Assembly: GCA_031255175.1 (NCBI GenBank) | Contig: JAIRTA010000059.1 | Span: forward strand, 1 to 40,581 | Length of the DNA stretch: 40,581 nucleotides | Origin: Oscillospiraceae bacterium | Lineage (GTDB): Bacteria > Bacillota > Clostridia > Oscillospirales > UBA929 | Reading direction: 5' to 3' | Shown: in pieces, positions 6,046 through 38,750 of the stretch | How positions within the stretch are numbered: position 1 is the stretch's first letter | How the letters are laid out: every line of letters starts with the position of its first letter | Notes under the pieces: model-generated | Database searches by the model: none | What the model saw: the letters and a program-made list of their open reading frames with translations, nothing else | Told to the model about the DNA's origin: nothing | Position numbers and translations under genes: made by a program

Positions 6046-6135
6046 TGTGAAAACCGCGTCTCTTGCATTCGCACATACAATATGTAGTATAGACATACTA
6101 CATATTGTATGTGCGAGGACTCTCCCGTTTTCACA
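6046..6135. repeat. 90-bp inverted-repeat element with a 21-bp perfect inner palindrome
   Basis: The inner part has perfect 21-nt arms (6070-6090 and 6095-6115) around a 4-nt loop AGAC. An outer pair TGTGAAAAC (6046-6054) and GTTTTCACA (6127-6135) frames it, so the whole element is symmetric with unequal linkers. The core is AT-rich in a GC-rich background. It lies between the MBL-fold gene and ychF, both read leftward. It could be a MITE-like insertion, an operator or an mRNA hairpin; there is no T tract typical of a terminator. Confidence 0.75.
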
Positions 6136-7254: not shown

Positions 7255-7343
7255 GGAGGATTAGCGAAGTGGTCATAACGCGGCGGTCTTGAAAACCGTT
7301 TGGGGGCAACCCCACGGGGGTTCGAATCCCTCATCCTCCGCCA
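7255..7343 (+). tRNA. tRNA-Ser (anticodon TGA)
   Basis: Class II tRNA with acceptor GGAGGAT pairing ATCCTCC, anticodon loop CTTGAAA (anticodon TGA), a long variable arm (GGGGGCAACCCC), T arm GGGTTCGAATCCC, discriminator G and an encoded CCA at 7341-7343. The region to its right (7381-9608) is a patchwork of remnant and accessory genes, as often seen beside tRNA genes. Confidence 0.96.
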
Positions 7344-7345
7344 GG

Positions 7346-7378
7346 AAAGCCTGTAACCGCAAGCGGTTCAGGCTTTTT
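7346..7378 (+). terminator. Terminator of tRNA-Ser
   Basis: AAGCCTGTAACCGC pairs imperfectly with GCGGTTCAGGCTT around a 2-nt loop, followed directly by a T run. It starts 5 nt after the CCA end. Confidence 0.88.
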
Positions 7379-7409
7379 CCATTTTTTGTCAGTCGTTTAT
7401 TTTTTCTTC

Positions 7410-7441
7410 GTGGTAACGAATTCGTGGTAACATGTTACCAC
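7410..7441. repeat. Repeated GTGGTAAC box with an 18-bp perfect palindrome
   Basis: GTGGTAAC occurs at 7410-7417 and again at 7424-7431; the second copy is half of the perfect palindrome GTGGTAACATGTTACCAC (7424-7441). The core GGTAACAT...GTTACC resembles the arms of the larger inverted repeat at 8986-9049. Function unknown; it may be a recombination or operator site next to the tRNA. Confidence 0.55.
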
Positions 7442-7476
7442 AGCGGCCGGGAATTTCTCAGACCCGGCGGCCGGCA

Positions 7477-7617
7477 CCGTCCTCTGTGGACGGCGCGGTC
7501 TCCCTGCACGAGGCCCACGACATCGCCCAGCGCGTCTACGACACCATCGAGGCGGAGTTTCCTTCCGTCAAACACTGCATGGTCCACGTCAACCCGGACG
7601 ACAAAACAGAGGCGTAA
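7477..7617 (+). pseudogene. C-terminal remnant of a cation diffusion facilitator (CDF) transporter
   Basis: The plus frame ending at TAA 7615-7617 encodes SVDGAVSLHEAHDIAQRV, then EAEFPSVKHCMVHVNP. This matches the cytoplasmic C-terminal domain of CDF zinc/iron/manganese efflux proteins (pattern ..EAH.IA..V...I...FP.V....VHV.P). The six membrane helices and metal sites are absent, and upstream sequence in frame is not transporter-like. It is therefore a truncated relic beside tRNA-Ser, probably left by deletion or insertion. Confidence 0.7.
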
Positions 7618-7657
7618 GAAGCCGCCGCCGGGGGTTTTGCATGTGGAAATTTATGGT

Positions 7658-7745
7658 TATCTGCATATTATTTGTTGTAAAATATGCAGATACTTTGTTT
7701 TTTGGCTTGACAATCTGCATATAATCGATTATGTTATATGCAGAT
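7658..7745 (+). promoter_or_regulatory. Two palindromic operators upstream of the Fic gene
   Basis: Operator 1: TATCTGCATATT (7658-7669) and its exact reverse complement (7681-7692), 11-nt spacer. Operator 2: ATCTGCATATAA (7713-7724) and its exact reverse complement (7734-7745), 9-nt spacer. The decamer ATCTGCATAT thus occurs four times in 88 bp. Operator 2 covers the spacer and -10 of the promoter at 7707-7735; the operator centres are about 54 bp apart, near five helical turns. This looks like a tightly repressed, probably autoregulated promoter. Confidence 0.8.
7707..7735 (+). promoter_or_regulatory. Promoter of the Fic gene
   Basis: A perfect -35 TTGACA (7707-7712), 17-nt spacer and -10 TATGTT (7730-7735) precede the Fic start by about 43 bp. 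It is embedded in operator 2. Confidence 0.75.
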
Positions 7746-7778
7746 ACCAAAAGCGCATCTGACAAAGGCGGTATGCAT

Positions 7779-8822
7779 ATGAGATATTTTGATTATTCCT
7801 TTCTCGAACACGGCATGCTCCCCGCGGGGCTCGTCAACGTTGTCGGCGCGATCAACGACATGCGCGGTCGCGAGAACGCACTCAGGGCAAACTATCCCGA
7901 CATTTTCACGCAACTGGAAAGCATTGCGAAAGTAGAAAGCGTCAAAGGCTCGAACGAAATCGAGGGCATTGTTACGAGTGAACAACGCATAAACGAGATT
8001 GTGAACCACAGTGCCGCGCCGCAAAATCACAACGAGGCGGAAATTGCCGGATACCGCGACGCGCTCGCGCTTGTCCACGCCGACCGCGCCATGCTTGATA
8101 TTCGCGAACGCGATATTCTGCGGCTGCATGAGATTATGCTGTCGTACTTACCGACAGGCGGCGGCCGCTACAAAAGCAGCGACAATGTGATTATGGAGAT
8201 CGACGCGCACGGAGCGCGGCGGGTTCGTTTTACGCCCACACCCGCCGCCGAAACCGCTGAAACAATGGAGCAGCTGATCCTTGCGTACATGGACGCACGT
8301 GATAACCCAACCGTAAACAGTCTGCTTTTGATCCCGTGCTTTGTCCTCGACTTTCTCTGCATACACCCATTTTCGGACGGCAATGGACGTGTTTCACGTC
8401 TGCTGTCACTGCTGCTCCTATATAAAAATGGGTTTGACGCAGGTCGGTATATTTCGTTTGAGGAACAAATCAACGTAAATAAAGAAGCCTACTACAGAGC
8501 GCTAAAAGAGAGTTCCAACGGATGGCATACAGGCGAAAACAGCTATTTCCCGTTCATTGAGAACTTCGTCACAACGCTTCTTTTGTGCTACAAAGAACTC
8601 GATAAGCGATTCGCGGCCGTAAACAGCGGCAAGGTCACCAAACGGGCACGCATTGAAGCGACTGTGCTGAACAGTCTGCTCCCGATAAGCAAGCGGGAGG
8701 TCTGTTATCTCCTACCGGACGTGAGTCCAACCACCGTTGAAATGGTGATCGCGTCAATGCTGAAGTCAGGCGCGATTGAGAAAATTGGCTTGGCACGGAA
8801 TACAAAATATATCCGGCGATAA
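7779..8822 (+). CDS. Fic family protein (AMPylase) with C-terminal winged helix
   Basis: A 347-residue Fic-domain protein, expected to move AMP (or a related nucleotide moiety) from a nucleotide to a protein hydroxyl. The active-site motif HPFSDGNGRVSR is complete at residues 196-207. An N-terminal inhibitory-helix motif SNEIEG at about 58-63 fits [S/T]xxxE[G/N], so the enzyme should be self-inhibited (class II). The last 50 residues (SLLPISKREVCYLLPDVSPT, then IEKIGLARNTKYIRR) look like a winged helix-turn-helix. I chose ATG 7779 because the AAAGGCGG site is 7 nt upstream; ATG 7773 is too close to it. The DNA-binding end together with the operators upstream suggests autoregulation (inference). 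Confidence 0.93.
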   Translation: MRYFDYSFLEHGMLPAGLVNVVGAINDMRGRENALRANYPDIFTQLESIAKVESVKGSNEIEGIVTSEQRINEIVNHSAAPQNHNEAEIAGYRDALALVHADRAMLDIRERDILRLHEIMLSYLPTGGGRYKSSDNVIMEIDAHGARRVRFTPTPAAETAETMEQLILAYMDARDNPTVNSLLLIPCFVLDFLCIHPFSDGNGRVSRLLSLLLLYKNGFDAGRYISFEEQINVNKEAYYRALKESSNGWHTGENSYFPFIENFVTTLLLCYKELDKRFAAVNSGKVTKRARIEATVLNSLLPISKREVCYLLPDVSPTTVEMVIASMLKSGAIEKIGLARNTKYIRR

Positions 8823-8833
8823 GATAGAAACGC

Positions 8834-8867
8834 AGCCCATACCCACTGTGTGACAATGGGTGTGGGC
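8834..8867 (+). terminator. Hairpin after the Fic gene
   Basis: GCCCATACCCA pairs with TGGGTGTGGGC (one G-T pair) 12 nt after the Fic stop. The T tract is poor (CTTATAT), so termination is likely but not certain. Confidence 0.45.
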
Positions 8868-8956
8868 CTTATATGTGGACAAAGCGATGGCGAATTTACT
8901 GATACTCGCGCCGGACGAGGTAACACAGCGCAAAACCCAAAACACGGCGGCACCTG

Positions 8957-8986
8957 TTGACGAAGGGATCAAGTAGGTGATAAAAT
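8957..8986 (+). promoter_or_regulatory. Putative promoter abutting a long palindrome
   Basis: TTGACG (8957-8962), an 18-nt spacer and TAAAAT (8981-8986) precede the dehydratase beta subunit gene. The 60-bp palindrome begins on the last base of the -10, so transcription would start inside its left arm. Confidence 0.5.
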
Positions 8987-9049
8987 ATACCTGAGAGCGG
9001 TAACATTTGCCGCAGGTGTGGTAAATGTTACCGCTCTCAGGTATACAAA
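8986..9049. repeat. Long inverted repeat, copy 1 of a dispersed element
   Basis: Arms 8986-9011 and 9020-9045 are 26 nt each with a single mismatch, around the 8-nt loop GCAGGTGT. A related copy lies at 38690-38750 before yajC; the two share AGCGGTAACATTTGC / GCAAATGTTACCGCT-type arms and the flank GGTAYACAAA. It sits in the 5' leader of the gene at 9075. It could be an operator, an mRNA hairpin or a REP-like mobile palindrome. Confidence 0.8.
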
Positions 9050-9074
9050 CAGCCAAAACAAACGGAGGAAACAT

Positions 9075-9608
9075 ATGTGGCAGCACATCGACGCGCCGCT
9101 TTCGGATGAGGTGATTTCGCGGCTGCGCAGCGGGGATATGGCAACGGTGAGCGGCGTCGTCTATACGGGCAGAGACGCCGCTCACAGGCGGATGGCGGAG
9201 GCCCTCGCGCGGGGAGAGGCCCTCCCTTTTGAGCCGGAGGGCCAGATCATCTACTACGCCGGCCCCTGCCCCGCTCCGCCGGGCCGGGTGATCGGTTCCA
9301 TCGGGCCCACCACCAGCGGACGCATGGACGCTTACGCGCCCGCGCTGATCCGGCGCGGCCTGAAGGTCATGATCGGCAAAGGCCTGCGCAGCCCCGAGGT
9401 TATCGAGGCCATACGGGCCTGCGGCGGCGTCTATTTCGCCGCCGTCGGCGGCGCCGCCGCGCTGATGAGCCGCTGTGTCAAACAGGCGGAGGTCATCGCC
9501 TACCGGGATCTCGGCACGGAGGCCGTCCGCCGCCTGCTCGTTGAGGACCTTCCCGTCGTCGTGGCCATCGACTGCCACGGGGGCAACTTATACGCGCGCC
9601 GCCATTAA
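9075..9608 (+). CDS. Fumarate hydratase class I / L(+)-tartrate dehydratase beta subunit, lone
   Basis: A 177-residue protein of the beta-domain family found as the C-terminal half of class I fumarases and as the small subunit (TtdB/FumB-like) of two-subunit enzymes. Family motifs are YYAGPCPAPPGRVIGSIGPT, TTSGRMDAYAP, and MIGKGLRS, with FAAVGGAAALMS further on. The [4Fe-4S] cluster is carried by the alpha subunit, which normally precedes this gene; none is present in the window. Either the alpha subunit is elsewhere or the gene is a leftover. GGAGGA sits 5 nt before ATG 9075. The 3' end overlaps the convergent hemerythrin gene by 21 nt. Confidence 0.9.
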   Translation: MWQHIDAPLSDEVISRLRSGDMATVSGVVYTGRDAAHRRMAEALARGEALPFEPEGQIIYYAGPCPAPPGRVIGSIGPTTSGRMDAYAPALIRRGLKVMIGKGLRSPEVIEAIRACGGVYFAAVGGAAALMSRCVKQAEVIAYRDLGTEAVRRLLVEDLPVVVAIDCHGGNLYARRH

Positions 9609-32159: not shown

Positions 32160-32324
32160 AGGCCGAGACCTCCCCCTCCATATCGCCGCGGAAGGGCCGG
32201 TCGCCGCGCCGCTTCCGGCCCTCACAACATATGTATGCCAGGGGCCGGCCGACCATGTACATTTCCCGCCGGGACACGCAAAAAATCCGTCCGCGCCGTT
32301 CGCGCAAACGGCCGCACCGACAGA

Positions 32325-32369
32325 CGGACCCACTATATATTGTGTTTTACACAAGATATAGTGGGTCCG
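32325..32369. repeat. 45-bp near-perfect palindrome between trmB and spoIIID
   Basis: Arms 32325-32345 and 32349-32369 (21 nt each, one mismatch) around TTT. The inner part is AT-rich (ACTATATATTGTGT), the outer GC-rich (CGGACCC). No T tract follows on either strand. It is similar in size and design to the palindrome at 6070-6115 but differs in sequence. Confidence 0.75.
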
Positions 32370-32390
32370 TTCGGAATGTCCGATACGGCG

Positions 32391-33083: not shown

Positions 33084-33099
33084 AGGAATACCCCTTTTC

Positions 33100-33141
33100 A
33101 GATAACAGATAACAGTCTCCGTCGACTGTTATCTGTTATCT
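33100..33141. repeat. 18-bp inverted repeat built of AGATAACA/TGTTATCT units
   Basis: Arms 33100-33117 and 33124-33141 are perfect, around TCCGTC. Each arm holds a tandem GATAACA duplication, and related heptamers (TGTTCACTGTT, GTTGTTCACTG) continue to about 33165. It lies between the stop of the recombinase gene and the start of trmB. The T tract is absent, so it is a poor terminator. Confidence 0.65.
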
Positions 33142-33168
33142 GTTCACTGTTCAGTTGTTCACTGTCCG

Positions 33169-38326: not shown

Positions 38327-38671
38327 TCACTCGGAGGGCTGCGCTCCCTTGGATGAGATGGCCCAGCGCATGACCTTGATCTTGACCTTGTCCGCGCCGG
38401 TCTCCATTGTGATGGAGTCGTCTTTGATGGAGACAACGCGCCCCACCATGCCGCCGATCGTGGTGATCTCGTCACCCACGACGAGCTCGTTGCGCAGCTT
38501 GGCCGCCGCTTTTTTCCGTTTGCTCTCGGGCCGGATGATCAGAAAATAGAAGACAACGGCGAGAAGCGGCAGCATGAGCATGGAGAGCAGATTGCCGGTT
38601 CCCGCGTCTCCCGACGCGGCGCCGTCCGCCGCCGCCCACAACGCTCCAGTGTGGATCCAAGACAAAAGCAT
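38327..38671 (-). CDS. yajC: Preprotein translocase subunit YajC
   Basis: A 114-residue YajC, the small accessory membrane subunit linked to SecDF. One membrane segment (about 28-46: LLSMLMLPLLAVVFYFLIIR) is followed by RPESKRKKA and the cytoplasmic domain (VVGDEITTIGGMVGRVVSIK, then ITMETGADKVKIKVMRWAI), all typical. GGGAGG lies 6 nt before ATG 38671. The gene heads the yajC - TIGR04086 - scfA - scfB order conserved in Clostridia; tgt, the usual upstream neighbour, is at 2968-4098 instead. Confidence 0.95.
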   Translation of the reverse strand: MLLSWIHTGALWAAADGAASGDAGTGNLLSMLMLPLLAVVFYFLIIRPESKRKKAAAKLRNELVVGDEITTIGGMVGRVVSIKDDSITMETGADKVKIKVMRWAISSKGAQPSE

Positions 38672-38689: not shown

Positions 38690-38750
38690 TATACCCCAAA
38701 CCGCAACATTTGCCATATCTGCAAATGTTACCGCTCCGCGGGTACACAAA
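38690..38750. repeat. Inverted repeat, copy 2 of the dispersed element
   Basis: This stretch aligns with 8986-9049 over its whole length: TATACC at one end, CAACATTTGCC, a short loop, GCAAATGTTACCGCTC, and GGTACACAAA at the other. Its own arms are imperfect (9-bp perfect core AACATTTGC/GCAAATGTT). It lies 19 bp upstream of yajC, in its leader or promoter region. Confidence 0.7.

Follow-up and report, generated by a model that had tools for sequence, protein, structure and literature searches.

The window analysed here is the whole 40,581-nt stretch that forms contig C26 of a draft genome of an Oscillospiraceae bacterium (G000; 2.5 Mb, 159 contigs, 97% complete). Gene identities were read off the translations, and are Pfam-based only where a Pfam family is cited. 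The window contains two copies of a palindromic element, W1 (8986-9045) and W2 (38690-38746). Both lie in gene leaders, in agreement with the earlier note. About 30 nt separate the end of W1 from the start codon (ATG at 9075) of a dehydratase subunit gene (Fumerase_C, PF05683), and W2 is located about 19–20 nt upstream of the start of yajC at 38671 (yajC is on the - strand).

At W1, an inverted repeat (8986-9014/9017-9045) has 29-nt arms with 93% complementarity, and its outer 23+23 nt pair perfectly. Folding of 8986-9045 yielded a single hairpin of 28 pairs at -49.8 kcal/mol, against a shuffle mean of -13.2 (z = -13.2), and 0 of 200 shuffles were equally stable. By these figures, the hairpin previously proposed at 8986-9049 is real. 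In a 420-kb sample of stretches from the same genome, 37 hairpins scored >=16, including other kinds such as terminators, versus 0 in a first-order Markov control of equal extent. Counted between the flanking dinucleotides, copy W1, TACCTGAGAGCGGTAACATTTGCCGCAGGTGTGGTAAATGTTACCGCTCTCAGGTA, spans 56 bp (8988..9043; arm profile 26.1 + 24.1 bits). The TA on its left (8986..8987) and the TA on its right (9044..9045) are read as a proposed target duplication. The two arms are identical at 24/25 positions and have common bases that depart from the family consensus. This agreement fits a recent copy, a template-switch correction between the arms, or selection on the hairpin.

A promoter-like TTGACG-18-TAAAAT was found directly upstream of the start of W1. 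The match is weak, because one was found where 0.5 were expected; since W1 begins right after it, the transcript may have the hairpin at its 5' end. In intrinsic terminator scoring, neither W1 nor W2 qualified, and an Rfam search returned tRNAs only.

W2 is a diverged second copy of 53 bp, counted in the same way (38692..38744; arm profile 22.0 + 15.7 bits), with a hairpin z of -3.5. It is flanked by TA on the left (38690..38691) and by CA on the right (38745..38746), which we read as a mutated TA duplicate. The two copies had been described as aligning end to end. This holds for the inner AACATTTGC...GCAAATGTT and the outer TATACC/GGGTA, which are common to both, but not for the outer stem of W2, which is imperfect or damaged. 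Similarly, the GGTAYACAAA flank assigned to both copies belongs to the element only in part, since sister genomes carry ACAAA(A) even where the site is empty. A supposed smaller relative at 7424-7441 is not supported: it gave no arm-profile match even at E<=5 and has only GGTAACAT in common with the copies.

A palindrome family across the draft genome

The suggestion that these palindromes belong to a dispersed multi-copy family was borne out by the whole-genome search, which brought the total to about six copies. Whether the genome was searched with DNA, with degenerate patterns or with an arm profile, the same short list came up. The profile was made from ten arms, one of which (a half-copy on C145) was later thrown out. 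Recovery of the six copies by this profile is not independent, because it was made from those copies; the informative point is that no additional convincing copies appeared among the 150 of 1547 first-look candidates that were scored.

The family consists of the two compact copies, a 28-bp remnant and three long copies (122-148 bp). All elements are shorter than 200 bp (28-148 bp) and have no coding capacity. The remnant (C48:178-205) lies directly before a sigma-factor-like gene. One long copy (C59:14981-15114) separates a solute-binding-protein gene from an ABC permease gene, another (C73:11766-11913) separates cysS from a PiT-like permease gene, and the third (C41:18618-18739) lies in a spacer. 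The copies have common ends, TATACCYGNRAGCGGTAACATTTGC, with terminal inverted repeats of ~22-25 bp, TACCCGCRAGCGGTAACATTTGC. The long copies additionally have a common interior around TTTTTGCCCTCCGGCCG, which forms a hairpin of its own. Internal deletion, leaving little beyond the arms, would account for the compact copies (28-56 bp).

Hairpins were significant against shuffles for C59 (z = -8.9) and C48 (-5.4), but not for C73 (-1.0) and C41 (-0.6). The flanking dinucleotides are TA/TA for W1, C48 and C73, TA/CA for W2, AA/TA for C59 and TG/TA for C41. Hence, one flank differs from TA in 3/6 copies, and these degraded flanks leave some doubt on TA duplication. The GC content is 0.50-0.54 in compact copies and 0.56-0.71 in long copies, compared to 0.60 in the window, so the long copies do not appear AT-rich.

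Several other candidates were rejected. Matches to GGTAACATTT at C11 and C45 lie within rpmA-like and trigger-factor-like coding sequence, and near-matches on C114, C77 and C4 lack a second arm. The C145 half-copy (15.4 bits) has similar sequence at the same place in a sister genome, and is therefore not an insertion. An exact degenerate end pattern gave six single-arm matches among 85,000 species genomes and viral contigs, with no second arm nearby, which we take as chance. Plasmid and phage records held nothing relevant to the family, and the same-genus genomes held no family match at up to 2 mismatches.

Other repeats were seen alongside. Another leader-like motif, approximately TCTGCCGAA...TTTTTTCGGCAGATGAAACAAAAA, is dispersed in G000, at C79:3022, C77:16171, C123:29611 (L072), C68:7716 (- strand) and C99:3419. 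On C79 it is upstream of a phosphofructokinase-like gene, and on C77 it immediately precedes the ribosome-binding site of a gene whose product begins with MSIKIG; it may represent an RNA leader common to these sites, an operator or a further small repeat. Palindromes of CCACTATATCTTGTGG and its inverse, whose half-sites presumably resemble NrdR boxes, were found at 32324-32370 in the window and at C110:14952, C68:9839 and C85:12134 in G000. The palindrome in the window is upstream of a SpoIIID-like gene, and a related stretch exists in the same-genus genome G003 (L108:3298-3335). The window further contains a perfect hairpin with 22-bp arms, TCGCACATACAATATGTAGTAT, at 6069-6116, upstream of a ychF-like gene. 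Hairpins of repeated CAGATAACAG / AACAGTTAACAG units occur at 33099-33142 in the window and at C36:14915-15071 in G000, and one of them sits between recombinase-like and trmB-like genes.

Empty sites in sister genomes

Orthologous spacers were compared with three genomes of the same genus (G002, G003 and G004). Four of the six copies (W2, C59, C73 and C41) are missing from matching spacers there: C59 in G002 and G003, C73 in G002, G003 and G004, and C41 in G003 and G004. The boundaries are sharp for C59 and for C41 on the right, but approximate for C73 and for C41 on the left. For C48, no close homologue was available. For W2, yajC is 88% identical in G003 and G004, and their yajC leaders align on either side of W2 but lack W2 itself. 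In G004, the site reads CCCCAAATTACAAAATATGG, where the window has CCCTTAACC-TA-[53 bp]-CA-CAAAAATATTG, and the junction of this empty site, AAATTACAAAA, carries a TA.

From these absences, and from flanks that fit a duplicated TA target, we conclude that the hairpins are insertions.

These absences also bear on the proposal that the palindromes are a shared operator, or a leader-RNA regulatory element, that defines a regulon. In its favour, both window copies lie in leaders beside start codons, and the arms of W1 were altered together, with perfect pairing over 23 bp. However, the element is missing from the orthologous spacers at four sites despite otherwise conserved neighbours, and its about six copies range from 28 to 148 bp in length. 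The genes beside the copies (dehydratase subunit, yajC, sigma factor, sugar ABC permease, PiT-like permease) have no relation to one another, one copy separates two genes within an ABC-transporter cluster, and the ends match an IS630 element. An operator is therefore highly improbable. What was suspected to be a regulon motif is a set of insertions missing from sister species, and their probable transposon source can be traced through their ends. Palindromes in gene leaders of such genomes should be checked for empty sites before they are read as operators.

Insertions may still affect the genes behind them. W1 and W2 would place an mRNA hairpin just upstream of the ribosome-binding site of their transcribed leaders. 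Such a hairpin could be an RNase III substrate or could alter mRNA stability or translation, as in NEMIS/Correia. Going further, compact copies might be kept as leader-RNA hairpins, with W1 perhaps co-opted as a 5' leader controlling the dehydratase subunit gene. The joint alteration of the W1 arms (23 bp perfect, with common non-consensus bases) makes host co-option conceivable, and the gene behind W1 has an alpha-subunit partner that no longer adjoins it, but we consider it unlikely.

The surroundings of W1 differ between genomes. In G003, a dehydratase alpha-subunit-like gene lies directly 5' of the beta subunit. In the window, this place (7255-9056) is occupied by a tRNA, a Fic-family gene (PF02661) and W1, and therefore the alpha and beta subunit genes are no longer adjacent. 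In the spacer ahead of the beta-subunit gene of G003 (C30:21100-21300; L108:1299 and 1413), a partial duplicate of the end of the alpha-subunit gene occurs ~114 bp beyond the original. Around W1, homology to G003 and G004 starts only at 9074 and 9056, respectively, because the upstream region differs.

IS630-like ends and the probable source

No DDE_3 domain (PF13358) was detected in the draft genome itself. Among 18 genomes of the taxonomic family, DDE_3 exceeded the cut-off only in G003 (contig C15), where it belongs to a decayed IS630-family element of 970 bp between flanking TAs. HTH_29 and HTH_33 are in its first frame and a C-terminal fragment of DDE_3 lies further on; the frames are broken. 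The transposase fragment had no relatives in plasmids, phages or viral contigs.

The ends of this element are TATACTGGAGTGCGGAAACATTTGC and, inverted, TATACTAACGAGCGAAAATATTTGC. They are identical to the arm consensus of our copies at 20/25 and 19/25 positions, inverted and flanked by TA. The right end was first spotted by eye. In a gap-free count over a 288-kb sample of G003, these two ends ranked first and second among all matches to the arm consensus, and Markov simulations of the 3.1-kb locus (n = 300) reached a maximum of 18 of 25. The left arm of W1 is closest to the G003 element, with 21/25 against its left end. With filters off, the arm profile scored the two ends only weakly (7.7 and 2.6 bits).

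Alternatively, the copies might be MITEs of another TA-inserting transposon, with a coincidental likeness to the G003 ends. No intact partner was seen, and the ends of the G003 element carry 5-6 mismatches to the MITE consensus over 25 positions, as would suit such a source. Against this, the top two matches in 288 kb fall on the two ends of the single DDE_3 element that G003 yielded, and IS630/Tc1-mariner elements as a rule duplicate a TA target. We regard another transposon as very unlikely.

Our results argue strongly that the hairpins are a small IS630-type MITE family, whose autonomous partner was probably an IS630-family element resembling the decayed one in G003. The observations behind this reading are the multi-copy family, the pairing of its arms, orthologous presence and absence, TA or TA-like flanks, and the end similarity to IS630. 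In the proposed mechanism, an IS630-family transposase would recognise the terminal inverted repeats of ~22-25 bp and join the element into a TA dinucleotide, so that TA is duplicated at both ends. Such a transposase, acting at the common ends and inserting at TA, would explain the ends, the flanks, the presence and absence among genomes and the missing coding sequence. Mobilisation would have been in trans. No transposase was detected in the draft, so the family is probably immobile now and its copies are probably relics, although multi-copy transposons are frequently missing from draft assemblies. With its long, deleted and decaying copies, the family is a compact and clear example of IS630-type MITEs. 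A search of the clostridial literature for IS630-type MITEs found nothing related, which is not proof of novelty.

Comparison with known systems

The earlier note had also raised a REP-like family, in which a REP-associated tyrosine transposase (RAYT, Y1_Tnp) disperses extragenic palindromes. Like REP/BIME sequences, our copies are dispersed, intergenic and strongly palindromic, and one is found inside an ABC-transporter cluster, between two of its genes. Yet there are about six of them, whereas REPs usually number tens to hundreds, and they lack the GT(A/G)G head of REPs (PMC2817692). Instead, they end in TATACC...GGTATA, with terminal inverted repeats of ~22-25 bp, TA flanks and a DDE-type (IS630) relative. 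On these features, a REP/RAYT origin is very unlikely.

Bacterial MITEs are under 200 bp, with terminal inverted repeats, 5'-TA-3' ends, target duplication and stable stem-loops (PMC2229807). The family has these traits on the whole, except that two long copies fold no better than shuffles. For AT-richness relative to the genome, another trait of bacterial MITEs, the GC contents given above present a mixed picture.

ERIC/IRU of enterobacteria is likewise an imperfect intergenic palindrome, of ~127 bp, that ends in TA and duplicates its target (PMC2229807). It differs in its 7-bp terminal repeats, in having no IS630-like partner named, and in its much wider distribution.

Correia/NEMIS (CREE) of Neisseria resembles the family in its long terminal inverted repeats (24-26 bp), TA ends, and full-length and internally shorter forms, and also in its hairpin transcripts and its frequent position just upstream of genes (PMC2229807; PMC10969869). 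In contrast, it has >120 copies in Neisseria. It also contains promoters, and its long form an IHF site, whereas neither feature was found here. Its partner transposase was not identified by end similarity (PMC2229807). Correia/NEMIS is a precedent for long terminal inverted repeats, shorter forms and RNase III effects (PMC2229807; PMC10969869).

RUP (repeat unit of pneumococcus) with IS630-Spn1 is also a ~100-bp non-coding element with a tight fold, TA with target duplication, and IS630-like ends, a likeness to ours by description rather than by base-by-base comparison (PMC2229807; PMC3049150). It differs in its unrelated host and in its about 110 copies in one pneumococcal genome, versus about six here. 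RUP is a precedent for a MITE with IS630-type ends (PMC3049150). The family is new but its kind is well known, and it is comparable to RUP and Correia/NEMIS.
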